64,000 nt of DNA. It comes from Polyangia bacterium. Lineage in GTDB: Bacteria > Myxococcota_A > Polyangia > Fen-1088. The stretch is taken from contig DATATI010000001.1 of the NCBI GenBank assembly GCA_036268875.1, positions 62,001 through 126,000 on the forward strand, given 5' to 3'. The translations under genes and the position numbers were made by a program. Below, one piece after another: positions 1,261 to 54,713 of this stretch (its first letter is position 1; each line of letters starts with the position of its first letter). The notes beneath the pieces were generated by a model. That model saw only the letters and a program-made list of their open reading frames with translations, made no database searches and was not told the origin of the DNA.

Positions 1261-3786
1261 CTATCGATCGATGAGGTTGAGGTCCGTCTTCCGCGGGCGG
1301 ATGTGCCAGATTTCTTCGGCGTATTGACGGATCGTGTTGTCGCTGGAGAATTGGCTTCCGCCGGCGATGTTCAGGGCGGCGCGGCGCGACCAGACGCGGG
1401 GCTGGCGATAGACGGTGCCGGCCTCGGCTTCGCGGGCGACGTAGCTGTCGAAGTCGGCGCAGACCATGAAGGCGTCGTGGTCGCGCAGGCTGTTGACGAT
1501 GGGTTTGTACCGATCGCGTTCGCCCAGGCTGAAGAAGCCAGAGGCCATCAGGTCCAGCGCTTCGGCCAGGACCGGCGATCGATCGATGAAGGCGCGCGGG
1601 TCATAGCCGGTTTCCCAAAGTTCGGCCACCTGGCGGGTGTCCATCCCGAAAAGGAAGAAGTTCTCGTGACCGACGGCGTCGCGGATCTCGATGTTGGCGC
1701 CGTCCAGCGTGCCCAGGGTCAGCGCCCCGTTCAAGGCGAACTTCATGTTGCTGGTGCCGGAGGCTTCCTTGCCGGCGGTGGAGATCTGCACGGACAGATC
1801 GGCCGCCGGAATGATCGCCTGGGCCAGCGACACGCCGTAGTTCGGCACGAACACCATGGCCAGCCGTCCGCGCACCAGCGGGTCGGCGTTGATCACCGCG
1901 GCCACGTCGTTCAGCAGGCGGATGTGCAGCTTGGCCATGGTGTAACCGGGCGCGGCCTTGCCGGCGAAGATGTACGCGCGCGGCACGGTGTCCAGCGATG
2001 GGTCGCGCCGGATGGCCATGTAATGGCCGATGATCTGCAGGCAAGCGAGCAGCTGCCGCTTGTATTCGTGGATGCGTTTCACCTGCACCACGAACATCGC
2101 TTCGGGCGGCAGTTCGACACCGGTGCGGGCCTGCACCAGCGGGGCCAGGGCGCGCTTGTTCTCCTGTTTGACGGTCCAAAGCTCGTCGAGGAATTCCGGG
2201 TCGTCGGCGAAGGCCGCCAGCGCGCGCAGCCGCGACAGATCGCGATCGATCCATTCAGACGAGCCGAGCTTTTCGGTGATGAGCCGGGTCAGGCGCGGGT
2301 TGGCGTACAAGATCCATCGCCGCGGCGTCACGCCGTTGGTCTTGTTGTTGAACTTGTCAGGCCACAGCTCGTAAAAATCAGCGAGCAGCTGGCTCTTGAT
2401 GAGCTCGGTGTGCAGCTGGGCCACGCCGTTCACGCTGTGCGCCGCCACCGTGGCCAGGTTTGCCATGCGCACCTGCTGGCGGTGGCCTTCTTCGATGATC
2501 GACATGCGCCGCAGGCGATCGTCATCGCCCGGCCAGCGGGTCTGCACCTGGCGCAAGAACCGCTGGTTGACTTCGTAAATGATCTGCAAATGCCGCGGCA
2601 GCAGCTTGCCCAGCAACGCCACCGGCCAGCGTTCCAGCGCTTCGGGCAGCAGCGTGTGGTTGGTGTAGCCGAACGTCTTCTCGGTGATGGCCCAGGCGTC
2701 GTCCCAGGCGAGGCCCTCTAGATCGACCAGCACCCTCATCAGTTCGGCCACGCCGATGGACGGGTGGGTGTCGTTCAACTGGATGGCCACCTTTTCGGGA
2801 AACTGTTCGAACGTCGCGTGGCTGCGTTTGTATCGTTTGATGATGTCGGCGATCGAGCAGGCGACGAAAAAGTACTGCTGCTTCAAGCGCAGCTCGCGGC
2901 CCTCGTCGCTTTGATCGTTGGGGTACAGAACCTTGGAGATGTTCTCGGTGTCGATTTTTTCCTCGACTGCGCGCCGGTAGTCGCCCTCGTTGAAAAACTG
3001 CAGGTCGAAGTCGCGGGTCGCGCGCGCCGCCCACAGCCGCAGCGTGTTCACGTTGTTCACCCGGTGGCCGACGATGAACGAATCGTACGGCAGGCCGATG
3101 ACCGGCCGAGCGTCGACCCAGTCCGCTTGCATGCGTCCGCAGGCGTCGTGGCGCACCTCCACGCGGCCGTAAAACTTCACGGTCTGCGCGTCCTCGTGGC
3201 GCGGCAGCTCCCACGGATTTCCTAAATGCAGCCAGTTGTCATGGCGCTCCACTTGCCGGCCGTCTTCGATCGACTGCTCGAACATGCCAAAGTCGTAGCG
3301 AATGCCGTAGCCGACCGCCGGCAACTCCAGCGTGGCCAGCGAATCCATGAAGCACGCCGCCAGCCGCCCGAGGCCGCCGTTGCCCAGGCCCGGATCGCCC
3401 TCGCGCTCCAGCACGTCGCCGAGATCGAACCCGTGCTGCGCGGCCAGCGCCTCCGCCGCGCCGTACAGATCCAGATTCAACAGGCAAAGGCCGAGCGACC
3501 GTCCGGTCAAAAACTCCGAGGACAAATAGTAGGCGCGCTTGACGTCGTGCTCGAGGTAGGTGCGCTGGGTGGCCAGCCAGCGGTGCACCAGGCGATCGCG
3601 CACGGTGTGGGCCATGGCCTGGTAAAGGTCCAGCGCCGAAGCGTCGCACAGCTCCTTGGCGCAGGTGTGCGTCAGGTGTTCCAGCACCGCGCGGCTGAAG
3701 TCGACCGCCTCGACGCCGGAACGCTTGGCCGCAGCGGTCGCGGCTGCCTTGGGCGCTGGCGGATCAGACCAGCTATTGACCGTCAT
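1261..3786 (-). CDS. glgP: Glycogen/alpha-glucan phosphorylase (GT35)
   Basis: Encodes 841 residues, the usual length for the family. It releases glucose-1-phosphate from glycogen ends using phosphate and pyridoxal phosphate. The cofactor segment EASGTSNMKFALNG is intact, with the Schiff-base lysine near residue 682, and the family signature NGGLGRLAACFMDSLATL occurs in the N-terminal half. The N-terminal 30 residues are Ala-rich and specific to this protein. ATG start at 3786; 93 bp separate it from the ABC-F gene upstream, so it may have its own promoter. Its anabolic partners (branching enzyme, synthase) are encoded 6.5 kb away at 10.3-13.4 kb. Identification is firm. Confidence 0.97.
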   Translation of the reverse strand: MTVNSWSDPPAPKAAATAAAKRSGVEAVDFSRAVLEHLTHTCAKELCDASALDLYQAMAHTVRDRLVHRWLATQRTYLEHDVKRAYYLSSEFLTGRSLGLCLLNLDLYGAAEALAAQHGFDLGDVLEREGDPGLGNGGLGRLAACFMDSLATLELPAVGYGIRYDFGMFEQSIEDGRQVERHDNWLHLGNPWELPRHEDAQTVKFYGRVEVRHDACGRMQADWVDARPVIGLPYDSFIVGHRVNNVNTLRLWAARATRDFDLQFFNEGDYRRAVEEKIDTENISKVLYPNDQSDEGRELRLKQQYFFVACSIADIIKRYKRSHATFEQFPEKVAIQLNDTHPSIGVAELMRVLVDLEGLAWDDAWAITEKTFGYTNHTLLPEALERWPVALLGKLLPRHLQIIYEVNQRFLRQVQTRWPGDDDRLRRMSIIEEGHRQQVRMANLATVAAHSVNGVAQLHTELIKSQLLADFYELWPDKFNNKTNGVTPRRWILYANPRLTRLITEKLGSSEWIDRDLSRLRALAAFADDPEFLDELWTVKQENKRALAPLVQARTGVELPPEAMFVVQVKRIHEYKRQLLACLQIIGHYMAIRRDPSLDTVPRAYIFAGKAAPGYTMAKLHIRLLNDVAAVINADPLVRGRLAMVFVPNYGVSLAQAIIPAADLSVQISTAGKEASGTSNMKFALNGALTLGTLDGANIEIRDAVGHENFFLFGMDTRQVAELWETGYDPRAFIDRSPVLAEALDLMASGFFSLGERDRYKPIVNSLRDHDAFMVCADFDSYVAREAEAGTVYRQPRVWSRRAALNIAGGSQFSSDNTIRQYAEEIWHIRPRKTDLNLIDR

Positions 3787-3879
3787 CGTCGGCCAGTCTG
3801 CGCCGACCGTTGTAACAGCGGTGTTTCGGTTGTGACTGTCCTCGGTAACTTTCAGAGCGCGGAGCCGACGCCCGCTAGT

Positions 3880-5499
3880 CTAGCGCAGCCCGGGCGCCTC
3901 GTGGCCGCTGCGAGCGACGTATTCGACGTAACCGCCGCCGTAGGGGATCGGACGGTCGGACGTCAGCTCCAGCACGCGGTTCGAAAGCTTGGCCAGGAAT
4001 TGCCGGTCGTGCGAGACGAACAGCATCGTGCCTTCATAATCGCCCAGCGCCCGCACGATCATGTCCTTGGTGGCGATGTCCAGGTGGTTGGTCGGTTCGT
4101 CCAGCACCAAAAAGTTGGGGCGTTCATAAAGAATCCGGGCCAGCACCAAACGCGCCTTCTCGCCGCCGGACAGCACGCGGCAGATCTTGTCGATGTCGTC
4201 GCCGGAGAAACCGAATCCGCCGGCCAGACCGCGAAGGGCGCCGACGCTGGCCAGCGGAAATGCCTCTTCCAGAATCTCGTACACGGTTTTGTCGGCGTCC
4301 AAGATCTCCATCGCGTGCTGGGCGAAGTAGCCCATCTTCACGCTGGGGCCGACGCTGACGACGCCGTCGTCGGGGGCGGTTTCGCCGGCCACCAGCCTCA
4401 GCAGCGTCGATTTGCCGGCGCCGTTGACGCCCATGATCGCCCAGCGCTCGCGGCGGCGGACGTTCAGATCGAAGCCGTCGTAGATCACCCGCTGCCCATA
4501 GCGTTTGCCCATCCGTTCGATCTTCACCACGTCCTCGCCCGAGCGGGCGCAGCCGGGAAACTCGAACTCCAGCGCGCGGCGCCGCTTGGGCGGCTCGACC
4601 TTCTCGATCTTGTCCAGCTTCTTCACCCGCGACTGCACCTGCGCCGCCTTCGCCGCCTGGGCCTTGAACCGTTCGATAAAGCGCATCTCCTTGGCCAGCA
4701 TGGCCTGCTGGCGCTGGTACGCTGCTTCGGCCTGCACCTCGTTTTGCGCCCGCTGTTTTTCGTAGAAGTCATGGTTGCCCGAATAGCTGGTCAAGACGCC
4801 GCCGTCGATCTCGATGATGCGGCCGACGATGCGGTTCATGAACTCGCGATCGTGCGAGGTCATCAGCAGCGCGCCTTCGTACGTCTTGAGAAAATTTTCC
4901 AGCCAGATGAGCGATTCCAGATCCAGATGGTTCGACGGTTCGTCCAGCAGCATGGCGTCGGGCCGCATCAACAAGATTCGCGCCAGGGCCACCCGCATCT
5001 TCCAACCGCCGGACAGCTGGTTGACGTCGCCGTCCATCATTGACTGCGAGAAACCCAGGCCGGCCAGGATCTCGCGGGCCCGCGCCTCCAGCGCGTAACC
5101 GCCGAGCTCGTCGAAACGCGCCTGCACCTCGCCGAAACGATCCAGCAGCTTCTCCATCTCGTCGGCGCGCGCCGGATCCGCCAGCGCCGCCTCCAGGTGT
5201 TTCAGCTCGGCGGCCACCGTCGACACGGCGCCGGCACCGGCCATCACCTCGGCCACCGCCGGGCGGCCGGACATCTCGCCCACGTCCTGGCTGAAGTAGC
5301 CGATGGTGACGCCGCGATCGACCGAAACCTGGCCGTCGTCGGCCGACTCTTCTTTCATGATCAAACGGAACACCGTCGACTTGCCGGCGCCGTTCGGTCC
5401 CACCAGGCCGACCTTCTCGCCGCGGTGAATGGCCGCCGACGCCTCGACGAACAGGATCTGCGGTCCGTGCTGCTTGCTGATTTTCTCCAGACGAATCAC
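3880..5499 (-). CDS. ABC-F family ATP-binding protein (YbiT/EttA-like)
   Basis: 539 residues with two ABC ATPase domains in one chain and no membrane segments, as expected for ABC-F proteins that act on ribosomes. First Walker A GPNGAGKST near residue 34, with signature LSGGW and LLDEPSNHLD; second Walker A GVNGAGKST, with LSGGEKARL and LVLDEPTNHLD. The linker between the domains is charged and helical (MLAKEMRFIERFKAQAAKAAQ), matching the P-site tRNA interaction motif region. Its start overlaps the stop of the upstream ABC-F gene by four bases (ATGA), so the two are co-translated. The subfamily cannot be fixed without alignment. Confidence 0.93.
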   Translation of the reverse strand: MIRLEKISKQHGPQILFVEASAAIHRGEKVGLVGPNGAGKSTVFRLIMKEESADDGQVSVDRGVTIGYFSQDVGEMSGRPAVAEVMAGAGAVSTVAAELKHLEAALADPARADEMEKLLDRFGEVQARFDELGGYALEARAREILAGLGFSQSMMDGDVNQLSGGWKMRVALARILLMRPDAMLLDEPSNHLDLESLIWLENFLKTYEGALLMTSHDREFMNRIVGRIIEIDGGVLTSYSGNHDFYEKQRAQNEVQAEAAYQRQQAMLAKEMRFIERFKAQAAKAAQVQSRVKKLDKIEKVEPPKRRRALEFEFPGCARSGEDVVKIERMGKRYGQRVIYDGFDLNVRRRERWAIMGVNGAGKSTLLRLVAGETAPDDGVVSVGPSVKMGYFAQHAMEILDADKTVYEILEEAFPLASVGALRGLAGGFGFSGDDIDKICRVLSGGEKARLVLARILYERPNFLVLDEPTNHLDIATKDMIVRALGDYEGTMLFVSHDRQFLAKLSNRVLELTSDRPIPYGGGYVEYVARSGHEAPGLR

Positions 5500-7307
5500 G
5501 ACTGCATGGCCTCCAGCTGCGCCCAGCGCGCGTACAGGGCATCGATCGCCGCCCGGGCTTTCTCTATCTCAGCGCCGAGCGCAATCAAGCGCGGTCCGTC
5601 ACTGACCACCGCCGGCGATTGGCTCTCCGTCTCCAGCGCGCCCAGGGCGGCCTCGGCGGCGGAGATGCGTGCCTCGATGGTGTCCCAGTCGCGCTGGTCC
5701 TTGAAGGTGAGCTTGGCTTTCTTGCTGGCCGCGGTCGAGCGGCCGCCGGCATCGCGCGCCGCCTTGGTCGCGCGCGGCGCCGCCTGCGTGGCATGCCAGG
5801 CGTCCCACTGCGAAAGCCCCACCAGCGCGGTCACCTGGCCTTCCTCGCCGGGTTTGGTGTGAAAGGCCAGGATCTGGGTCGCCACTTGATCCAGAAAATA
5901 TCGATCGTGCGTCACCAGCAGCACCGCGCCGTCGAACGAGCTCAGGGCGTCTTCCAGCACCTGCAGCGTCGGCAAATCCAGATCATTCGTCGGCTCGTCC
6001 AGCACCAGCACGTCCGCCGGCAGCAGCATCAGCTGCGCGATCAGGAGACGGCTCTGCTCGCCGCCCGAAAGCCGGGCCACCGGCAGCATCATCTGCTCGG
6101 ACCGAAACAGAAACCGCTCCAGATAACCGAAACGGTGCACGCGAGCGCCGCGGAACGAAACGAAATCACCGTCGGGGCAAACCGTATCAGCCAGCGAACG
6201 GGTCCCGTCCAGCGATTCGCGGTTCTGTTCGAAGAACGCCACCCGCAGGCCGTCGGCGCGCACCACCGTGCCCACGGTCGGCGCGTCATCGCCGACCAGC
6301 ACACGCAGCAGCGTCGACTTGCCGCAGCCGTTCGGCCCCAGGAAACCAACCCGCGCCCCTGGCCCGACGAACAGATCGACGCCGGCGAACAAAGCCCGTT
6401 CGCCGAAGCGCCGGGCGATGCCGCGCGCCTCGATCAACCGGCGCGGCCCCTTGCCGCGGGCAGCGAAGCCAAGCTCGACGCCGCGGACCTGGTTGCGCGA
6501 CGACAGCGCCGCGACCTCGTCGGCCAGCGCGCCCGCCCGTTGAATGCGGGCCTCCTGTTTGGTGGTGCGCGCCTGCGGCCCGCGCCGCAGCCATTCCGTC
6601 TCGCGGCGAAGCGTGTTGCGCAGGACATCTTCGCGGCGTTCCTGTGCCTGCATCGCCTCGGCCTTGCGTTCCAGATAGGTGGCGTAGTCGCCGGCCACAT
6701 CCATCAGACCAGCGGCGTTGCGGCGATCCAGTTCCAGAATTCGGTTCGCCACCCGCTGCAAAAACAGCCGATCGTGCGTCACCGTCACCGTGGCAAAGCG
6801 CGCGCCGGCCAAGAACTTCTCCAGCCAAAGAATGCTCTCGACGTCCAGGTGATTGGTCGGCTCGTCCAGCAGCAGCAGCTCTGGATCGCGAACCAGCGCC
6901 TGTGCCAGCGCCACCCGCTTGCGCCAGCCACCCGACAATTGATCGACGGGCCGATCGGCGCCAGCGGCGTCGCTGGCGAGATCCATCTTCGCCAGCAGCT
7001 CGTCGACGCGCGCTTCGTCGTCGCCAGCGCCCAGCGCTTCGCGCAGCACGTCGCGCACCGTCGCGCCCGGCGTCAAGACCGGAATCTGCGCCAGATATCC
7101 GACCCTCAGTCCAGCGCGCGCCGCCACCAGCCCGCGATCGGCGGACAGCGCACCCGCCAAGATCTTCAGCAGCGTGGATTTTCCGGCGCCATTTGGCCCG
7201 ATCAAGCCAACCCGATCGCCATCCGACAAGGTGAAGCTGACCGATTCAAACAAGGCGCGCGCCCCGAACGAATGAGCGAGCTCTTGCGCTGACACGAGAA
7301 TGGCCAC
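5496..7307 (-). CDS. uup: ABC-F family ATP-binding protein, Uup-like
   Basis: 603 residues with two ABC domains (GPNGAGKST near residue 38; GPNGCGKST in the second half), both with LSGG signatures and a DEPTN(H/D)LD Walker B. The last 80 or so residues (around KKAKLTFKDQRDWDTIEARI) are charged and predicted coiled coil. This tail separates Uup from other ABC-F proteins, and in Uup it contributes to DNA and ribosome interactions. It is the first gene of a two-gene minus-strand unit overlapping the next ABC-F gene by ATGA. Two different ABC-F proteins in one operon suggests shared translation-related duty; the precise roles are inferred. Confidence 0.9.
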   Translation of the reverse strand: MAILVSAQELAHSFGARALFESVSFTLSDGDRVGLIGPNGAGKSTLLKILAGALSADRGLVAARAGLRVGYLAQIPVLTPGATVRDVLREALGAGDDEARVDELLAKMDLASDAAGADRPVDQLSGGWRKRVALAQALVRDPELLLLDEPTNHLDVESILWLEKFLAGARFATVTVTHDRLFLQRVANRILELDRRNAAGLMDVAGDYATYLERKAEAMQAQERREDVLRNTLRRETEWLRRGPQARTTKQEARIQRAGALADEVAALSSRNQVRGVELGFAARGKGPRRLIEARGIARRFGERALFAGVDLFVGPGARVGFLGPNGCGKSTLLRVLVGDDAPTVGTVVRADGLRVAFFEQNRESLDGTRSLADTVCPDGDFVSFRGARVHRFGYLERFLFRSEQMMLPVARLSGGEQSRLLIAQLMLLPADVLVLDEPTNDLDLPTLQVLEDALSSFDGAVLLVTHDRYFLDQVATQILAFHTKPGEEGQVTALVGLSQWDAWHATQAAPRATKAARDAGGRSTAASKKAKLTFKDQRDWDTIEARISAAEAALGALETESQSPAVVSDGPRLIALGAEIEKARAAIDALYARWAQLEAMQS

Positions 7308-7381
7308 GGCGGGCGCACTTTACACGGAACCTTGGACGACGCTGGCGCAGTCGGGGGATTTTGTGGCGTCCGCACCGTCGC

Positions 7382-8422
7382 TCAGGTCGCTGCCACGCCC
7401 AACGCCCGCCCGATCAAGAACGTCACGCCAGCTGCTCCTGCGCCGATGAACAGCATGCGCAGTCCGCCCTTCAGCGCGCCCTTGCCGGTGAACAAGCTGG
7501 TCGCCGCGCCGACGACGAACAGCGCCGCGCCAGTGACGAACAGCGCGCCGGTCAGCGCCGCGCGTCCGCTGGTCACCAGAAACGACAGCAGCGGCAAGAA
7601 CGCGCCGATGGCGAACGAGATCGCCGACGATCCCGCCGCTCTCCACGGCGAGCCGAGCTCCGTCGGATCCAGACCCAGCTCTTCGCGCGCCAGCGTGTCC
7701 AGGGCGTGCTGCGGGTTTTCGATCAAGCGCGTCGACACGCGCTGGGCGTCTTCTTTTTCCAGGCCGCGCGCTTCGTAGATCAGCGCCAGCTCGGCGGCCT
7801 CCTCGCGCGGGTATTCGGACAGCTCGTCGCGTTCAGCGCTGATCTGGCGCTCGAACATCTCGCGCTGCGACCGCACCGAAACGTATTCGCCCGATGCCAT
7901 CGAGAACGCGCCGGCCAGAAGCCCGGCGACGCCCGACACGACGATCATCCGTTCACCACCAGCGACGCTGGCCGCGCCGGCCACGCCCAGGATCAAGCTG
8001 GCGTTCGACACCAGGCCGTCGTTCACGCCGAAGATGGCCGCGCGTAAGCTGCCGCGACCTTTTCCTTGATGACGACGACCCACTTCCTCGACGGTGGTGG
8101 GCATGGCGTGGCCGGGCCGCCGGCCATCATAGATGGACATGCCGCGCACCTTCATCGCCGCCAGCACCCCGCGCATGTGCTGGGGGCCAAACTGCCGCAC
8201 CAACGCCGCCACCACCCGCGCCCGTCGAGTCGGTTGAAACGACGTCGGCGCCGCCGCGCCGCTGCCACGCGCCTTGTCCTCCCAGATCGAGGCCTGCGCC
8301 TCCGCTTCGGCGGCCAGGCGCGCGAACAACTCGCGCCGTTCGGGCGACGGCTCGGTTTCGGCCAGCACCCGGTACAGGAAGGCTGATTCCTTCTCCTGTC
8401 CCCAACTGTCAGCCGCGCTCAT
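7382..8422 (-). CDS. Ferritin-like / VIT1-CCC1 family iron transporter (MbfA-like)
   Basis: 346 residues from the ATG at 8422; an in-frame ATG at 8623 would run into the divergent gene and adds residues with no family look. The N-terminal 55 residues (EKESAFLYRVLAETEPS...) are a short ferritin-like helical region. From about residue 120 the VIT domain follows: GVNDGLVSNASLILGVAGA, a membrane helix with MASGEYVSV, an acidic cytoplasmic loop rich in Glu, and C-terminal helices ending in a Gly/Ala-rich membrane segment. VIT proteins move Fe2+/Mn2+ out of the cytoplasm. The ferritin-like part looks short and lacks a clear ExxH pair, so its metal site may be weak. Confidence 0.82.
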   Translation of the reverse strand: MSAADSWGQEKESAFLYRVLAETEPSPERRELFARLAAEAEAQASIWEDKARGSGAAAPTSFQPTRRARVVAALVRQFGPQHMRGVLAAMKVRGMSIYDGRRPGHAMPTTVEEVGRRHQGKGRGSLRAAIFGVNDGLVSNASLILGVAGAASVAGGERMIVVSGVAGLLAGAFSMASGEYVSVRSQREMFERQISAERDELSEYPREEAAELALIYEARGLEKEDAQRVSTRLIENPQHALDTLAREELGLDPTELGSPWRAAGSSAISFAIGAFLPLLSFLVTSGRAALTGALFVTGAALFVVGAATSLFTGKGALKGGLRMLFIGAGAAGVTFLIGRALGVAAT

Positions 8423-8595
8423 GTCGTCCACATTACCAGAGGCACCCGGACGCAACGGCGCGCTGCTTGAAAAGAAACGGCGGCGATGCGCCTCGGAAAC
8501 AAATCGGCAGCGTCCCGGATATCTTAGTTTCGCCTCTGCATTATTTTCCGCTGCGCTTCCAATCCGTGAGTAAGCTCTGCCTGCCGAGTCGATGA
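8423..8595. promoter_or_regulatory. Divergent intergenic region between VIT gene and glycogen operon
   Basis: These 173 bases separate two outward-reading genes and must hold the promoters of both. I see no clean -35/-10 pair or palindrome. AT content rises around 8518-8545, which is the likeliest promoter location. Confidence 0.3.
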
Positions 8596-10293
8596 ATGAG
8601 CGAAGAAACCACCCAAACCCCATCCTCTGAACACGCTGGTCTGACTGTCGTCGCAGCGCAGATCCTCAGCGCCGTCAGCCAGCACGACGGCGCATCGCCG
8701 TCGACGGCGTCGTCAGTGGAAAATTTTCTCCGCTGCACCCGCGATCAATTATTGGGCTTCGCCAAACGCCTGGGCGTAGGCGGAACCAGCAAATTGTCGA
8801 AGGCCGAACTGGCGGCGCGCCTGCACGGCCTGCTGGCCGCGCTGCCACGCACGGCCGGCGGCGAGAGCACCAAAGACCAAGACAAAGACAAGATCGCGGG
8901 CGAGTCAAGCGGCGACGGCGGCGGGTTTCCCCCGAAGTACGATCTCGGCCCCGACGCCGAAGAGTTGCAGATGCCCCGCCACATTCCGTGGGGCTATGGC
9001 CAGGACCGCGTCACCGCGATGGTCGTCGATCCGGATCGCCTGTTCGTCTACTGGGAAGTCACCGACGCTGCGATGGAGAGCGGGCGGCGGGCGCTGGGCA
9101 AAGGCGGCGCCGACGCCTGGCTGTGCCTGCGCGTGTACGACACCACCGGGCGCCTGTTCGACGGCACGAACGCCCACAGCTATTTTGACCACAACATTGG
9201 ACGCGGCGATCGGCAGTGGTTCTTCGACATCAACAAGCCGACGTCCGCGGCGTGCGTCGAGGTCGGCCTGAAATCGACGGAGGGATTCTTCGTCAAGGTG
9301 GCGCGCTCGGGCCGGGTGGAGTTTCCGCGCAGCCAGCCGGTAGGCGGCGGCCACGTCGAGTGGATGACCGTCACCAACGCCGCGGGCGCGCCGGGCCCAT
9401 CGACGCCGGGAACGCTGCCGACCGGGCCAGCGGCGGCGCCGGGTCATGGGCCAGGTGGCGGCGACGGCACGGCCCAGGCGGCGGCAGCCCCAGGGGGAGG
9501 CGGCGCCGGCCACGGCGGAGTCGTCGAATCGATCGCCACGGGCTTCACCGAGCACCAGACCGAACGTCACTGGGAATGGCGCGAGGGCGAGCAAGCGTCC
9601 TGGCAGACCGAGCTGGCGTCGATCTCCTGGACCGAACCGGTGATTCGATCGACCTGGGAAGCCGGCCCGTTCACCTATCCGGTGCAGTCGCCGGTGCTCA
9701 CTGAAGAACATCACGGTGCCCAGGGACACCTGCACTACCGCACCGAGAACGGTCGGGTGCACATCACCTACGGCCCTTGGCAAGTGGTCATCCGCGGCCT
9801 GGGCGCCCGCGCCGAGCGGCGGGTGCTGGCGACCTGGCAGGTGACGCACAGCTGGTCGACGGTGGCGGCGCGCGAGAGCACGCCGGTGACCTGGCGGCCG
9901 GTGGGGCCCGGCGCATCGGAGTGGATGGCGGAGGGCGGCAGCGAGCGCGTGTGGATGAGCGGCAGCGAGCTGCGATTGGGCGGCGGCTCGGAGATGTTCA
10001 TGCTGGGCGCCAGCGAGCTGCGGCTTTTCGGGGCCAGCGAACGCCTGCTGAGCGGCGCCAGCGAGTACCGGTTCCGCGGCGCCAGCGAGCGCCTGTTGAG
10101 CGGCGCCAGCGAGTACCAATTTCGAGGCGCCAGCGAGCGCCTGGGCGCCGGCGCCAGCGAATCTTTATTTCGCGGCGCCAGCGAACGCGCGCTGGGCGGC
10201 GCCAGCGAGCGGGTCATCGGCGCCAGCGAACAGCACCTGGGCTATCCGGCGGCGATCGCGCTGGCCAACGGCACCGACGGAGAGGGAGGCTAG
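8596..10293 (+). CDS. DUF4912 protein with C-terminal octapeptide repeat, glycogen operon
   Basis: 565 residues, with no signal peptide or membrane helix, so cytoplasmic. Residues 49-80 (RDQLLGFAKRLGVGG...) look like a SAP/Rho-N helix-turn-helix module. Residues 126-250 match my recollection of the DUF4912 domain (PWGYGQDRVTAMVVDPDRL, FVYWEVTD, WFFDINKP), which has a carbohydrate-binding-like beta character. A Gly/Ala/Pro linker and a Trp/His-rich region (about 300-435) follow. Residues 439-549 are 14 tandem units of G-[AG/GS]-S-E-x4. The stop is 5 bp before the branching enzyme start, so they form one operon. The function is unknown; a role in organising glycogen synthesis is inferred from context. 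Confidence 0.85.
   Translation: MSEETTQTPSSEHAGLTVVAAQILSAVSQHDGASPSTASSVENFLRCTRDQLLGFAKRLGVGGTSKLSKAELAARLHGLLAALPRTAGGESTKDQDKDKIAGESSGDGGGFPPKYDLGPDAEELQMPRHIPWGYGQDRVTAMVVDPDRLFVYWEVTDAAMESGRRALGKGGADAWLCLRVYDTTGRLFDGTNAHSYFDHNIGRGDRQWFFDINKPTSAACVEVGLKSTEGFFVKVARSGRVEFPRSQPVGGGHVEWMTVTNAAGAPGPSTPGTLPTGPAAAPGHGPGGGDGTAQAAAAPGGGGAGHGGVVESIATGFTEHQTERHWEWREGEQASWQTELASISWTEPVIRSTWEAGPFTYPVQSPVLTEEHHGAQGHLHYRTENGRVHITYGPWQVVIRGLGARAERRVLATWQVTHSWSTVAARESTPVTWRPVGPGASEWMAEGGSERVWMSGSELRLGGGSEMFMLGASELRLFGASERLLSGASEYRFRGASERLLSGASEYQFRGASERLGAGASESLFRGASERALGGASERVIGASEQHLGYPAAIALANGTDGEGG
9910..10242 (+). repeat. Coding tandem repeat: 14 octapeptide (24-bp) units
   Basis: The 3' end of the DUF4912 gene encodes GASEWMAE, GGSERVWM, SGSELRLG, GGSEMFML, GASELRLF, GASERLLS, GASEYRFR, GASERLLS, GASEYQFR, GASERLGA, GASESLFR, GASERALG, GASERVI (7) and GASEQHLG in direct succession. 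The Ser-Glu pair is invariant and positions 6-8 alternate hydrophobic and basic residues. Units 6-9 also show a 16-residue double period, suggesting recent duplication of a pair. Confidence 0.95.
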
Positions 10294-47000: not shown

Positions 47001-48368
47001 TCAGGCTGGCCGGTGGGGTTCGGCTTTGACCCGGCGATGATGACGGGGCGAACGGCCGCCGTCCAGCAGGACCACGCCCTCGCCTTCGCACTGGATCTGG
47101 AACAGGCGACCGCCGCGCAGAGCGTGCGGCACGATCCGGCCCACCCAGCCGTATAGCCTTCCGCGCGGTACGAACACCGGGTGGGCGCTGGTCACGCGCA
47201 CCGCCGACGGCGGCAGATCAAATTGCAGCGCCACCCGGCCGCTGCCGCGAAACTGCAACAAGCGCAGCCGATCGCCGGGGATGCGGCCCGCCTCCCAGGA
47301 GACACCGCGATCGAACGCCAGCACCCGATCCTCACGCAGATAAAAGATGTCGTCGTCGAGGGCGACGGTCGTCCAGTGGCCGGCCGGCCCGGTCACCAGC
47401 AACTGACCAGCGCCCGCCACCCGGAAAAATCCGCGGCGTTTGCGGCCGAGCGGCTGCTCGGTGGCGCGGCCGCGCACGCGACGAAACGCCGGCCGCCACG
47501 GCGATGCGCCCGCCCAGGCCAGCGCGGCGTCGCTGCGCACGTAGGCGTCATCGTCCCCGACCAGGAAGGCCACCGCGTCCGGCGCCAGAGCCAACCCGCC
47601 CACGCCCAGACCGGCCAGCACGAACGAAACCAGCGACGGGGTCTGCTCCGCCATCAGGTCGGTGTTCGGCGCCAGCGTGGCCAGCGCGTTCACCGGCGGC
47701 GCCTCGACGGTCATCGCCACCGTCGATGGCAGAGGATCCAGCGCCGCTGCCTCGTTGGTGGGCTGCCCGCTGATCACCTCGACTTCCTCGCGCGCCGGCG
47801 CGGGCCCGGCCGGCGCAACCGCGGGCGCCGTCTCGCTGGAATTACCCGACGCGCCGGTGACCTTCGACGTGCTGACGTCGGCGATCGGCACCACCGCCGG
47901 CTCCAGCTGGGCAGCCAGGAGATCTTGCCCGGCCCGCCGAAACGCCAGCGCCGCCCCGGTGCTGTCGCCGCCCTTGGCCAGCGCGTAACCGAGGTAGCTC
48001 CAGGCCTTCAGATCGTCGGGCGCCAGCCGGGTGGCCCGATCCAGCGCGGTGACCGCGTCGTCGTACCTTTCCATCTTCAGTGACACCAAACCAAAGTTGC
48101 GCTGGATGTTGGCGTCCGACGGCTGTAGCGCCGCGATCTCGCGGTAGGTGGCGCGCGCCTCGTCCAGCTTGCCCAGCTTGAAGCGCACCAGCGCCAGCAG
48201 GTTCAGCGCGCGCACGTCGTCGTGCGTGTTGGACAGCGCGCGCAGGATCTCCACCTCGGCCTGACGGTAGTGGCGGCCGCTCAGCAGCTCGCCAGCCGCC
48301 GCCAGGTGCGATTGCAGGCGATCGCGCTCGGCGCCGTGATCGTCGGGTGGTGGCGGGGTGGTGGTCAT
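47001..48368 (-). CDS. TPR protein with C-terminal AIM24-like domain
   Basis: 455 residues, cytoplasmic. Residues 20-150 are three to four TPRs (SGRHYRQAEVEILRALSNTH, LDEARATYREIAALQPSDAN, YDDAVTALDRATRLAPDDLK). An Ala/Pro-rich linker reaches about residue 245. The last 200 residues (GQLLVTGPAGHWTTVALDDD, FYLREDRVLAFDRGVSWEAG, LLQFRGSGRVALQF) match the AIM24/TIGR00266 beta-sandwich. AIM24 proteins influence mitochondrial membrane organisation in yeast; the bacterial role is unclear. It sits between a lytic transglycosylase (2-bp gap) and pgsA (3-bp gap). Confidence 0.8.
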   Translation of the reverse strand: MTTTPPPPDDHGAERDRLQSHLAAAGELLSGRHYRQAEVEILRALSNTHDDVRALNLLALVRFKLGKLDEARATYREIAALQPSDANIQRNFGLVSLKMERYDDAVTALDRATRLAPDDLKAWSYLGYALAKGGDSTGAALAFRRAGQDLLAAQLEPAVVPIADVSTSKVTGASGNSSETAPAVAPAGPAPAREEVEVISGQPTNEAAALDPLPSTVAMTVEAPPVNALATLAPNTDLMAEQTPSLVSFVLAGLGVGGLALAPDAVAFLVGDDDAYVRSDAALAWAGASPWRPAFRRVRGRATEQPLGRKRRGFFRVAGAGQLLVTGPAGHWTTVALDDDIFYLREDRVLAFDRGVSWEAGRIPGDRLRLLQFRGSGRVALQFDLPPSAVRVTSAHPVFVPRGRLYGWVGRIVPHALRGGRLFQIQCEGEGVVLLDGGRSPRHHRRVKAEPHRPA

Positions 48369-50854: not shown

Positions 50855-51523
50855 ATGCTGGACAGCGAAGACATTGCCCGGCTGGTGCGACGCGCGCAGG
50901 ACGGTGATGTACGCGCGTTCGAAGAGCTGGTTGGCGCGCACATTCCGCAGGTGCGACGTTTCGCGCAGGCCTTCGCCCACGACGAAGGCGACGCCGCTGA
51001 CCTGGCCCAGGACGCCCTGGTCAAAGTCTACCGATCGATCAGCAGCTATCGGTTTCAGTCAGCGTTTTCCACCTGGCTTTACGCCATCATTCGCAACGTT
51101 TTCCTGGACAATGCCCGCAGCCGCGCCGGCAAGGAACGCGCGCTTGAGTTGCCTTTCGATATCAAGCACATCGACACGACACGGCCGTCGGACGCCGACG
51201 ATATGGCGCGCGCCGATGTGCAGATCGAACGGCAGCAAGAACGGCGGCGGGTGTGGGCAGCCCTGGCCCTGGTGCAGACCGAATTTCGCTCGACGCTGGT
51301 GCTGTTCGACATCGAAGGCCTGTCCTATGAAGAAGTGGCGGCCATCGAATCAGTGCCTCTGGGCACCGTGAAATCGCGTCTATCGCGAGGACGCGATCAG
51401 CTGCGGCGGCTTCTGTCCTCGACCACCGGCGGAGAATCGGCGCGACCAGACGACAACGCGCAAGACGACGGGAACAACCAAGAGAGACTTGTCGTCACTC
51501 AGCAGAGGAAACGATCAGGATGA
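50855..51523 (+). CDS. ECF-type RNA polymerase sigma factor
   Basis: 222 residues from the ATG at 50855 with AAGGGG five bases upstream. Region 2: ADLAQDALVKVYRSISSYRF, STWLYAIIRNVFLDNARSRA. Region 4: LVLFDIEGLSYEEVAAIESV and PLGTVKSRLSRGRDQLRRLL. The C-terminal 30 residues are polar and likely disordered. First gene of a four-gene operon; its stop overlaps the next start (ATGA). TATAAG at 50816, within the end of nadB, may be the -10 of its own promoter. Confidence 0.93.
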   Translation: MLDSEDIARLVRRAQDGDVRAFEELVGAHIPQVRRFAQAFAHDEGDAADLAQDALVKVYRSISSYRFQSAFSTWLYAIIRNVFLDNARSRAGKERALELPFDIKHIDTTRPSDADDMARADVQIERQQERRRVWAALALVQTEFRSTLVLFDIEGLSYEEVAAIESVPLGTVKSRLSRGRDQLRRLLSSTTGGESARPDDNAQDDGNNQERLVVTQQRKRSG

Positions 51524-52134
51524 CGCCACATATTCCCACGCGGCCCGACATCAGCGACGACGATGTGCGTCGGATGCTGGGTGGCCTACGCGTCGATCCG
51601 GCGGATGGTGGCTTCGGCGAAGCGCTGCACCGGCGACTGGCCGCCGAAGCGCCGCCAAAAGCGCCTGGCATTTTGTCGGCGGTGCGCGCGGTCTTCGCTC
51701 GCTGGCCCGCCGTGCTGTGGCCGGCGACCGGCGTATTGAGTGGAGCGGCGGCGTTCGCCTTGTTGGTGACGCTACGGGCGCCGGCGGTGGTCCCGTCCGC
51801 ACCGGTGGCGGCGCCCGTCGCCGCGGTGGCGGAGGTCGTCCATCGCTTGCCCGCCGACAAGACGGCCGTCATCCGCATCAACTTCGCCGCCGAGGTGGCG
51901 GTGGACGACGTCAACTTCGAGATCACCCTGCCCGACGGTCTTTCGTTCTGGAGCCGCGGAGAGAAGCTGGCCATGCGATCGTTTCGCTGGCAGGGAAAGT
52001 TGGAAGCGGGCGACAACCCGATCCCGATCGCCGTGCGCGGTGATCGGCCGGGCGTGTACCGGGTGCGCGCCGACGCCGACGCGGGCGGAACCCGCATCGA
52101 GCACGAGGTGGTGTTGCGGGTGGAGGGGGCATGA
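51520..52134 (+). CDS. Single-pass membrane protein with Ig-like periplasmic domain (putative anti-sigma)
   Basis: 204 residues. Residues 1-62 are cytoplasmic (ISDDDVRRMLGGLRVDPADG, GFGEALHRRLAAEAPP), with no zinc-binding HxxxCxxC. One membrane helix at 63-85. Residues 105-204 form a beta-sandwich-like domain (VNFEITLPDGLSFWSRGEKL, GVYRVRADADAGGTRIEHEV). Direct overlap with the sigma gene (ATGA) and topology suggest an anti-sigma factor of non-ZAS type. The N-terminal layout parallels the CBM48 protein at 28.8 kb. It overlaps the next gene by ATGA. Confidence 0.7.
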   Translation: MTPHIPTRPDISDDDVRRMLGGLRVDPADGGFGEALHRRLAAEAPPKAPGILSAVRAVFARWPAVLWPATGVLSGAAAFALLVTLRAPAVVPSAPVAAPVAAVAEVVHRLPADKTAVIRINFAAEVAVDDVNFEITLPDGLSFWSRGEKLAMRSFRWQGKLEAGDNPIPIAVRGDRPGVYRVRADADAGGTRIEHEVVLRVEGA

Positions 52135-52610
52135 TGACGGGCAGGTTGGCGGCGGGAAGAAAATTATTCGTGGCGGCGGTGCTGGCCGGCGGCTTGCTCG
52201 CCGGCGCCAAGCAAGCGGCCGCCCAGGGGCACGACAACAACGAGAAGCGGCCGCGCCCGCCCATCCGGGCCAGCGCCACCGTCGAGGTGATCGATCCGGC
52301 GCACGGCGTGGACGAGATCATCAGCCGGGTGCGCGATCAAAAAGGCCGGCGCGGCGACGGGTCAAAAGATCACACCAATCAAGACCAAGGTAACCGCGCC
52401 GGCGGCGACGATGACAGTCACCGCGGTGGCGGGGCGCTGCCCAACGCCACCGGCGGCGATCGCGAGACGTTGCCTCCTCCCGACAAGAATGATCGCCCGA
52501 GCTATCGCCCCGATCGCGACCGCCGCGATCCGCGCCGCCAAGACGGTGAGACCCGCCTGTCCTTACCGAACAACCGTACGAATAGTATGCAGAGGCAGCA
52601 GCGCCGATGA
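52131..52610 (+). CDS. Exported, highly charged, probably disordered protein
   Basis: 159 residues (a second Met immediately follows the first). Signal peptide LFVAAVLAGGLLAGAKQAAAQ. A short ordered-looking segment (ASATVEVIDPAHGVDEIISR) is followed by about 100 residues very rich in Asp, Arg, Gly, Asn and Gln, e.g. DNDRPSYRPDRDRRDPR-like runs, predicted disordered. No known domain. Third gene of the sigma operon, overlapping the second by ATGA. Function unknown; a cell-envelope role is inferred from export and context. Confidence 0.6.
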   Translation: MMTGRLAAGRKLFVAAVLAGGLLAGAKQAAAQGHDNNEKRPRPPIRASATVEVIDPAHGVDEIISRVRDQKGRRGDGSKDHTNQDQGNRAGGDDDSHRGGGALPNATGGDRETLPPPDKNDRPSYRPDRDRRDPRRQDGETRLSLPNNRTNSMQRQQRR

Positions 52611-52695
52611 CGCGGCGATAGCGCCGGTCAGCCACATCGCGCGCTGGGAGGTCGACAATCGTCGGCCTGAAATTGCGAGTACACTGCGGCGCGAC

Positions 52696-54687
52696 TTGCT
52701 GTCGTCTTTCTTGTGCGGCCAGGGCCGCCCGCTGGTTTTGCTGCTCGCTTTGCTGACGCCGGTGGTGGCCGCCGGCGCAGCGGCGGTGGCCGCGCCTGAT
52801 GCCTCGTTGCCCGCCGGCGTGGCCGAAGCGCGCGCCGAACTGGACGCCGGCCATCCCGAGAAGGCCGCGCGCATCGCCGAGCGGGCGGTGATCGCCGATC
52901 CAGAGAACGGCGATGCCCACTTGGTCCTGGGCTTGGCGCGCTTTCGCACCAAACGCTATGTCGAGGCGGCCGACGCCTTCGAGGCGGCCGCGCACGCCGC
53001 CCGCCCGGTGGCGACGACCGTCGCGGCGTTCAACAAAGGATCCGCGCTTTACAAGGCTGGCCAGTTCGAGGCGGCGGAGAACTGTTTTCTTGAAGCGGCG
53101 GCCGACAAATCACTGGCCGCGCTGGCCACGGTGAACGCCGCCTTCGCCGCCCTGGACAGCGAGCAGATCGATCGCGCCAAAGAACTGCTGTCGGCGGCGC
53201 AGCGCCAGCCCCGGGCCCGGGACATCAGCAACGTGCTGGATGATCTGCGCCAGCAAATCGAAGACGAGGAGGATCGCCTGGCCGACTCGCGCGTGCGCAA
53301 GCTGCGCGATGAAGCGCGCCAAGCGTTGAATCAAGGCAAGTGGGCGCACGCCATCACCGGGTATCTGGCGGCGCTGGGCCAGGCCCGCAAGCTGGAACGT
53401 TCCAACGCCGAGCTTGGTGAACTGACATACGCGCTGGGCGTCGCGCAGTACCGCGCCGGGCACTTCGAAGACGCGCGCCGCACCTTCAACGACGCCGCCA
53501 CGCTGTCGCCCGGCGAGGGTGAGTTTCACATGATGGCCGCGGTGTCGGCGGCCCGCCTGGACGAGAACGCCGCCGCCCGCCGCAGCTTCGAGGAGGCCTT
53601 GCGCCGCGGCTTGAGCCCGGAGAACACCGATCTCATCCGCGGTTATCTGGCGGCGCTGGCGCCGGGCCTGGCCACCCGCGGCAGCGGCGTCGACATCAGC
53701 GCGGCCGTGGCCACTGGCTATGACAGCAATGTCACCCAGTCGGGCGTGGGCCGCACCGAGACCATCGCCAACACCGGCTCCAGCCCCTTCGCCGAGGCGG
53801 CCTTCGATCTGGCCTGGCGTTTCCCCGTCGGCGAGCGCGGCTTCGCCGAGCTGGCCTACGATTTCGATCAGACCGCGTTCTTCGACGGCGAGCTGGACGC
53901 ATTCAGCTTGCAGCAGCACACGGTCGAGGCGACGGGTGAGGTGCGCCTTTTGCCTTGGCTGCGCGCGTCCCTGCTGGGCGGTGGCGACATGCTCTTCGCC
54001 GGGTTGTCGGGCTTCGCGGCGTTTCAGATCGGCGCCACCGTGCGCCCGATGCTGGCCTTCGACGAAGGCCAGCGCACCAGCACCCGCGTCGAGCTGGAGC
54101 ATTCCTGGAAGCACAGTCTGCAATCCGATTTCAGCCATCTGAGCGGGACCCGCACCGATCTCACCATCGCCCAGGACACCGGCAGTCGGCGCGTGCGCTT
54201 GACGTTGGCGTATCGCTACCGCGACGAGAGTCTGCCCACCCCAGAGCGGATCAACACCGCCGATCTGCCCAATCTGGGTGAACTGCCGCAGTGCCCGAAC
54301 AATTCGTGCACGTATGTCATCCCTTACGGCTACACCGCCCACGCCGGGTTGGCGCGCGCGGTGATCGCCTTGCCGAACCTGGGACGGTTGCTGCTGACCG
54401 CGTCGCTGGAAAGCCGACAGTACGGGCGCAACAGCTATATCGAGATCGCCGCCGGCGGCGTGTCCATCGGCAACATCTACCCGCGTGAACGCCATGACGT
54501 GCGGTACGGCGCCGGCATCGCCCTGATCCTGTCACACAGCACGGTCTACGACGCCACCGTTCGCTACGACCTGCTCATCAGCCGTTCGAACATCGACAAC
54601 ACCGTCGACCGCCTGGATTACGACAACAAGAACTTCGCCAAGCACGTCGTCAGCATCGAAGTCGGGTCCGACTGGTCCTGGCGATGA
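52696..54687 (+). CDS. TPR protein with C-terminal outer-membrane beta-barrel
   Basis: 663 residues if the TTG at 52696 is used; no in-frame ATG or GTG precedes a plausible signal peptide (RPLVLLLALLTPVVAAGAAA), so the start is uncertain. Residues 40-340 hold seven or so TPR-like units (PEKAARIAERAVIADPENGD, RYVEAADAFEAAAHAARPVA, GHFEDARRTFNDAATLSPGE). Residues 350-663 are alternating strands beginning AAVATGYDSNVTQSGVGRTE and ending in Trp-Arg, about 14 strands. TPR-plus-barrel is the layout of Slam and polysaccharide porins such as PgaA; which applies is unknown. Last gene of the sigma operon. Confidence 0.72.
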   Translation: MLSSFLCGQGRPLVLLLALLTPVVAAGAAAVAAPDASLPAGVAEARAELDAGHPEKAARIAERAVIADPENGDAHLVLGLARFRTKRYVEAADAFEAAAHAARPVATTVAAFNKGSALYKAGQFEAAENCFLEAAADKSLAALATVNAAFAALDSEQIDRAKELLSAAQRQPRARDISNVLDDLRQQIEDEEDRLADSRVRKLRDEARQALNQGKWAHAITGYLAALGQARKLERSNAELGELTYALGVAQYRAGHFEDARRTFNDAATLSPGEGEFHMMAAVSAARLDENAAARRSFEEALRRGLSPENTDLIRGYLAALAPGLATRGSGVDISAAVATGYDSNVTQSGVGRTETIANTGSSPFAEAAFDLAWRFPVGERGFAELAYDFDQTAFFDGELDAFSLQQHTVEATGEVRLLPWLRASLLGGGDMLFAGLSGFAAFQIGATVRPMLAFDEGQRTSTRVELEHSWKHSLQSDFSHLSGTRTDLTIAQDTGSRRVRLTLAYRYRDESLPTPERINTADLPNLGELPQCPNNSCTYVIPYGYTAHAGLARAVIALPNLGRLLLTASLESRQYGRNSYIEIAAGGVSIGNIYPRERHDVRYGAGIALILSHSTVYDATVRYDLLISRSNIDNTVDRLDYDNKNFAKHVVSIEVGSDWSWR

Positions 54688-54697
54688 CCGCTCGCCT

Positions 54698-54713
54698 CGC
54701 TCGTTAACGAGCG
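54698..54713. other. Perfect 16-bp palindrome between convergent genes
   Basis: CGCTCGTTAACGAGCG lies between the barrel gene stop (54687) and overlaps the DsbA-like gene stop (54704). It can fold into a 6-bp stem with a 4-base loop in either transcript. Without a T-run, terminator function is uncertain. Confidence 0.35.

Follow-up and report, generated by a model that had tools for sequence, protein, structure and literature searches.

What would four adjacent genes do together when the first encodes a sigma factor and the last an outer-membrane barrel? The genes in question lie in a stretch of 64,000 nucleotides from a Polyangia bacterium (assembly GCA_036268875.1, contig DATATI010000001.1, positions 62,001 to 126,000), called the window here. 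They encode an extracytoplasmic function (ECF) sigma factor (gene 1), a membrane protein (gene 2), an exported disordered protein (gene 3) and a protein combining tetratricopeptide repeats (TPR) with a barrel (gene 4). An earlier note had described them as a four-gene operon that could sense and act on the outer membrane; such sensing and acting remain plausible. Reading the sequence directly confirmed the coordinates and order it had given for the four plus-strand genes (Table 1) as well as its two ATGA overlaps, at 51520 and 52131; a third ATGA, at 52607, opens a frame of four codons only. Our analysis makes it very probable that a private ECF sigma/anti-sigma circuit for one outer-membrane device exists at this locus.

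That the four genes belong together is supported by their arrangement in other genomes. A barrel profile (A2) used to search 317 genomes of the class gave matches in 26, and the gene neighbourhoods were examined for 25 of these (G132 was left out); four barrels (G008, G134, G135 and G195) lie near contig ends where the gene context cannot be judged. The same order of homologous genes holds in 7 genomes from 5 families (f1, f27, f14, f18 and f16), namely in the window and at loci L077, L079, L085, L084, L087 and L088, and the ATGA overlaps are kept in L077, L079 and L085. The module sigma adjoins the barrel gene in 13 genomes (12 of the 26 barrel loci and L173), seven of them with the full order, five (family f11) with sigma, barrel and a gene 2 lacking the immunoglobulin (Ig)-like domain, and one (G019) with sigma and barrel. 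When a gene 2 profile (A5, see below) was run on the same 317 genomes, strong matches to the Ig-type gene 2 (E below 1e-30) were obtained in 12 genomes of six families, all 12 of which are among the 26 barrel genomes (hypergeometric 5.5e-15, the relatedness of the genomes being ignored); eleven further genomes with weaker matches (E above 1e-8) were excluded from these counts.

Gene 2 and barrel are unlinked in five f3 genomes of these 12. In four of the five the barrel stands apart from a cluster of sigma, gene 2 and gene 3 (gene 3 is cut by the contig end in L170), and G019 shows the complementary split, with sigma beside the barrel (L036) and gene 2 beside gene 3 on another contig (L172). 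Barrel homologues standing apart from the other three genes, which the earlier note would have counted against its proposal, do occur (for instance at L034, L037, L038, L072-L074 and L076); in five such genomes, however, the remaining genes are present at other places. Among more distant barrels of other classes (20 neighbourhoods), neither a gene 2 nor a module-like sigma was found, and two weak sigma matches had E values of about 1e-15. As an observation in its own right, some of these distant relatives from other classes of the phylum (L124-L143) adjoin exported FecR-domain proteins and not module-like sigmas; the FecR match passed the cut-off in L124 and L126 and fell short of it in L131, and three others tested had none.

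Gene 1 is, from its domain content, an ECF sigma factor. In a Pfam run covering eight window proteins it matched Sigma70_r2 (E=1.7e-17, residues 25-91 of 222) and Sigma70_r4_2 (E=4.2e-10, residues 133-183), with TIGR02937 also above cut-off, and regions 2 and 4 are present with no region 3 between them and no region 1.1 before them. In the sigma tree all 17 module-locus sigmas cluster to the exclusion of 8 others (support 92/95, 93% of bootstrap trees); that of G019 is nested inside the f3 clade (support 98/94). The host genome has 42 matches to the gene 1 sigma, itself included, and by this count is rich in ECF sigma factors.

Gene 2 had been labelled an Ig-like membrane protein. An Ig-like domain is indeed predicted for residues 98-204; the label is however incomplete, since orthologues and alignment point to an anti-sigma factor. 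The zf-HC2 domain was above the Pfam cut-off in five of five tested gene 2 orthologues (families f3, f16 and f18). The orthologues at L087 and L088, from families f16 and f18, align with window gene 2 in three regions, namely the last helix, the membrane segment and the Ig-like domain, and the profile made from that alignment (A5) detected the f3 orthologues. In the window, f27, f14 and f11, gene 2 has lost its zinc finger and first helices; no Pfam or NCBIfam model matched the window protein, nor did any Pfam model match the single copy tested from each of f27 and f14. According to PMC7406223, the fourth helix of a class I anti-sigma domain contacts sigma region 2, and zinc is not always required, zinc-free domains being known. 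The last helix shared by the gene 2 copies appears to correspond to this fourth helix. Because of the zf-HC2 orthologues, the aligned last helix and the zinc that is not always needed, window gene 2 is most plausibly a class I anti-sigma factor in shortened form with a predicted binding to sigma, the two genes being adjacent with an ATGA overlap.

AlphaFold2 modelled residues 98-204 as an Ig-like beta-sandwich with a mean predicted local distance difference test score (pLDDT) of 84-92 in most blocks, and the best PDB match of this domain has Z 10.0 and a root-mean-square deviation (rmsd) of 3.4 over 106 residues. The N-terminal part is poorly modelled, and the periplasmic Ig-like domain has no Pfam match. 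The approximate limits of the putative transmembrane segment were read from the hydrophobic stretch in the sequence. In family f11 the periplasmic part is disordered and has no Ig-like domain, and the L082 copy is nearly without a periplasmic part.

The gene types and the logic recall surface signalling of the FecI-FecR-FecA kind, in which an ECF sigma, a membrane anti-sigma factor and an outer-membrane barrel are encoded together. On that model the barrel would bind a ligand outside the cell and its periplasmic part would signal straight to gene 2, with gene 3 as an accessory. We regard this as improbable: no FecR domain was found in window gene 2 (Pfam) or in seven orthologues, the barrel carries TPRs and 14 strands and is not a TonB-dependent receptor (these being 22-strand barrels), and the strong conservation of the additional disordered exported protein would be left unexplained.

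A second line of evidence for the circuit is a promoter-like motif. At 8 of 16 loci GGAAC-N16/17-CGTC occurs within 110 bp upstream of gene 2, whereas the motif density in 28 loci without a module sigma would predict 0.036. In the window, L077, L079, L085, L083 and L086 the motif sits in the 3'-terminal part of the sigma gene, with 20-24 bp between its end and gene 2. The sigma coding sequence crosses it in two different frames, and therefore the motif DNA itself appears to be conserved. Upstream of the first genes (16 sigma genes and gene 2 of L172), GGAAC-N17-CGTC (N16 once) is present within 250 bp in 12 of 17 cases, against 0.105 expected from pair-shuffles, some of the gene starts used being approximate. 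Genes 2-4 can thus probably be transcribed without the sigma gene, from a predicted ECF promoter before gene 2. The four genes do belong together and their order recurs, as the operon proposal implied; given this promoter, which could serve genes 2-4 alone, a single four-gene operon is only part of the picture. A sigma-dependent promoter upstream of the window sigma itself was rejected, as the 250 bp before it hold no GGAAC-N15-18-CGTC and candidates with two mismatches in the nearest 400 bp were no better than chance matches by appearance. The whole window holds two motif copies against 1.14 expected, and a regulon search in genome G000 gave the window's own copy as the sole site clearly before a module gene. 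A tighter pattern ending in CGTCTGA was uninformative (11 sites in 6 genomes against 5 in controls).

The same motif lies upstream of another gene in eight of eight loci of f3 and f11. This gene is divergent from sigma and encodes an exported, highly charged low-complexity protein, with KADKKEIKADK-type repeats in f3; it has no counterpart in the window. Its product is a candidate fifth component. Two further ideas were set aside: a motif shared between the f11 anti-sigma tail and the divergent protein amounted to one 5-mer (FELPE) and low-complexity 5-mers in L081, with none in L086 or L083, and a gene 3-like tail fused to the f11 gene 2 was an impression from composition only.

The description of gene 3 as an exported, disordered Asp/Arg-rich protein held up: its N-terminus is signal-peptide-like and its mature part consists of 17% Arg, 13% Asp and 11% VILMFWYC. 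No Pfam or NCBIfam model matched it, and its sequence has no lipobox. It carries a conserved strand motif that reads roughly R-x-S-x-V-T-V-I-D-P, after which DDIISRxR or a near variant comes in f1, f27 and f14; outside the motif the product is Arg-rich with few hydrophobic residues. A profile built without the window sequence recovered window gene 3 with E=6.2e-6 among 3507 open reading frames (ORFs), the next non-member having 0.19, and leaving out other members likewise separated L084 (E=0.00069, next 0.83), L085 (1.2e-7, next 0.54) and L172 (0.0023, next 0.47). Of the 12 genomes that have the Ig-type gene 2, 10 show the motif and the other two (L087, L088) a looser, weaker variant. As gene 3 is kept with the Ig-type gene 2 even at loci where the barrel is unlinked, this suggests that the products of genes 2 and 3 are in contact.

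For gene 4, a TPR protein with a 14-strand barrel had been predicted, and AlphaFold2 (with an alignment of the window sequence and three homologues, four sequences in all) agrees, with a model in which some 16 helices precede exactly 14 long strands (mean pLDDT 77.9, predicted TM-score 0.53). The only Pfam and NCBIfam matches above cut-off were TPR models. The barrel fits CymA (Z 21.5, rmsd 3.8 over 286 residues) and OmpG (Z 21.2, rmsd 3.8 over 256 residues) at an identity of about 8-10%, so that it belongs to the OmpG/CymA type in fold only. Hydropathy alternates along all 14 strands in 18 aligned barrels, and most of the conserved charged residues, among them R464, R486, R509, E572, R574, D601 and R603, are on the strands' polar face; Q406, H408 and H650 are not. 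The likeliest start of gene 4 is the TTG at 52696, the first ATG, GTG or TTG in the barrel frame past the gene 3 stop; the frame stays open upstream of it into gene 3, and no Shine-Dalgarno sequence is visible close by. The earlier note had also proposed coupled, low-level translation from this codon, which we rejected as a feature of the system, since the TTG is not conserved and homologues start with ATG (L084, L085) or possibly GTG (L077, L086).

Foldseek matches of gene 4 include BcsC (9b8h, 6tzk), PelB (9h80) and a polysaccharide secretin (4y25). Together with the conserved polar-face charges of the strands, they raise the question of whether the barrel exports a polysaccharide in the manner of BcsC, PgaA and PelB, which likewise combine TPRs and a barrel, the Arg-rich protein binding the polymer. 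This appears improbable as well, because no synthase or glycosyltransferase was found among the eight window proteins (Pfam) or in the translated neighbourhoods, which were screened by eye without a family search, and because the strand number differs, the PgaA barrel having 16 strands according to PMC8406197.

PMC8406197 also describes type XI (Slam) systems as an N-terminal TPR domain and a 14-strand barrel, which is the architecture modelled for gene 4. The TPR-barrel might accordingly be a secretion channel of this kind, with gene 3 as its cargo, the divergent charged-repeat protein as cargo in other families and the sigma pair matching supply to demand. The divergent genes under the shared motif would fit, as would an exported low-complexity charged protein beside the barrel even without a sigma (L034) and a low-complexity frame in L035. 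We nevertheless consider a Slam-like channel rather unlikely. SlipAM (PF04575), the family of Slam/DUF560, matched 0 of 18 barrels and nothing in G000, where the search lacks a positive control since 14 control genomes likewise gave none, and membership of the Slam family by PF04575 was rejected. Gene 3 is not a lipoprotein, sigma and anti-sigma partners are present here, and the best PDB fits of the barrel, CymA and OmpG, are passive porins; the absence of a Slam structure among the PDB and Foldseek matches listed proves nothing.

The explanation that we favour, with a chance somewhat short of even for the whole of it, is that the sigma/anti-sigma circuit makes and monitors a device of gene 3 and barrel. 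Sigma would drive transcription of genes 2, 3 and 4 from the promoter in the last part of its own coding sequence and, gene 2 being among them, would set up a negative feedback. Homology and modelling suggest that gene 2 tethers sigma at the inner membrane through its last anti-sigma helix and reads the periplasm through its Ig-like domain. Gene 3 would be exported; the TPR domain and barrel would hold its Arg-rich tail or thread it through, and its conserved strand could dock on the Ig-like domain of gene 2. If the barrel were obstructed, absent or fully occupied, unbound gene 3 product would dock on gene 2, sigma would be released and the set would be made in greater amount. Gene 3 would in this case be a messenger between barrel and anti-sigma factor, which we propose tentatively.

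Several points weigh against this explanation. Gene 3 could equally be secreted cargo, although we rate the messenger slightly higher. In f11, sigma and barrel occur with an Ig-less gene 2, so that docking on the Ig-like domain, absent there and in L082, cannot be general. Family f1 speaks against a strict module, as gene 2 is found there in the window genome only and the barrels of G002 and G008 are without it. No GGAAC-N15-18-CGTC lies within 250 bp before sigma in the window, L084, L085, L082 and L173. The motif also precedes none of eight unlinked barrel or L034 rows, and unlinked barrels may therefore lie outside the regulon. Genome-wide, GGAAC-N16-TCGTC is not enriched in G000 (25 sites against 21 for the reversed control), and the case for the promoter is therefore one of position and conservation only.

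Table 1. Features of the four-gene locus in window coordinates, and the divergent genes found at other loci.
Feature	Position	Strand	Basis
Gene 1, ECF sigma factor	50855..51523	+	Pfam Sigma70_r2 and r4_2; sigma tree grouping
ECF-type promoter motif GGAAC-N17-CGTC (predicted)	51471..51496	+	in sigma gene 3' end, 23 bp before gene 2
Gene 2, membrane-bound anti-sigma factor (predicted)	51520..52134	+	zf-HC2 orthologues; alignment A5
Gene 2, retained last anti-sigma helix GFGEALHRRLAAEAPP	51613..51660 (approximate)	+	aligned with same helix of zinc-finger orthologues
Gene 2, transmembrane segment	51703..51777 (approximate)	+	hydrophobic stretch
Gene 2, periplasmic Ig-like domain, residues 98-204	51811..52131	+	AlphaFold2, PDB match
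Gene 3, exported Arg/Asp-rich disordered protein	52131..52610	+	signal-peptide-like N-terminus, composition
Gene 3, conserved strand-helix motif IRASATVEVIDPAHGVDEIISRVR	52263..52334	+	leave-one-out hidden Markov model
Gene 4, TPR and 14-strand outer-membrane barrel protein	52696..54687	+	likely TTG start; Pfam, model
Gene 4, periplasmic TPR domain, residues 40-328	52813..53679	+	Pfam TPR_16 E=5.4e-18; model helices
Gene 4, 14-strand barrel, residues 331-663	53686..54684	+	AlphaFold2 model; CymA/OmpG fits
Divergent gene, L169	about 7200	+	
Divergent gene, L170	2803-3285	-	
Divergent gene, L171	2273-2788	+	
Divergent gene, L036	9050-9517	+	
Divergent gene, L081	3555-4202	-	
Divergent gene, L082	2869-3459	+	
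Divergent gene, L083	about 3720-4379	+	
Divergent gene, L086	2075-2647	-	

Upstream of the four genes, a FAD_binding_2/Succ_DH_flav_C protein, inferred to be L-aspartate-oxidase-like, is encoded on the same strand and ends 32 bp before the sigma start. Downstream, a gene for a DsbA-like thioredoxin protein converges with the barrel gene, and between the two lies a perfect 16-bp palindrome, CGCTCGTTAACGAGCG (54698-54713), which overlaps the end of the DsbA-like gene and is a possible two-way terminator, without a T run. Further away, 47001-48368 (minus strand) encodes a TPR protein with a C-terminal AIM24 match of 24.6 bits, the Pfam cut-off being 25.7. At two barrel loci the neighbouring frames are unusual. 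In L034 of G002 an exported KAEIEAKIAE-repeat protein (8104-8812) is followed by separate TPR (7266-8048) and barrel (6272-7294) ORFs, all on the minus strand, reflecting either a frameshift or two genes; before the G008 barrel, L035 has a GGPKAGGPEGG-repeat frame with a run of N (3623-4177, minus strand), where the contig ends.

Compared with known systems, the sigma and the zf-HC2 orthologues of gene 2 resemble the RpoE-RseA, SigW-RsiW and ChrR-type pairs, the last gene 2 helix apparently corresponding to the fourth helix of such anti-sigma factors; the differences are the loss of the zinc finger and first helices in the window, f27, f14 and f11 and the periplasmic Ig-like domain, replaced by a disordered part in f11. 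In the RcsF/OMP/IgaA system, too, an exported protein stands between a barrel in the outer membrane and a brake in the inner one, a likeness of arrangement; it works however by a phosphorelay instead of a sigma factor, and RcsF is a lipoprotein. No such four-gene set was found in literature titles and the beginnings of abstracts, and supplementary tables of ECF groups may contain one.

ECF/anti-sigma pairs and TPR-barrels are known kinds, and their combination looks like an apparently undescribed route from the cell surface to gene expression. It is conceivable, though we would not count on it, that this is a third kind of outer-membrane-to-sigma signalling, in which a disordered Arg-rich protein reports the state of a TPR/14-strand barrel by beta-strand addition to an Ig-domain anti-sigma factor, the sigma of sister families also drives a divergent charged-repeat protein, and the anti-sigma domain has shrunk to about one sigma-binding helix in several lineages. 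To our knowledge, the reporting of outer-membrane state to the cytoplasm is understood for few systems. This set is a compact example whose components, namely a barrel, a disordered go-between, an anti-sigma factor and its predicted promoter, are genetically linked, and the gene 2 orthologues form a testable series from the zinc-finger form to one with a single recognisable helix predicted to bind sigma.

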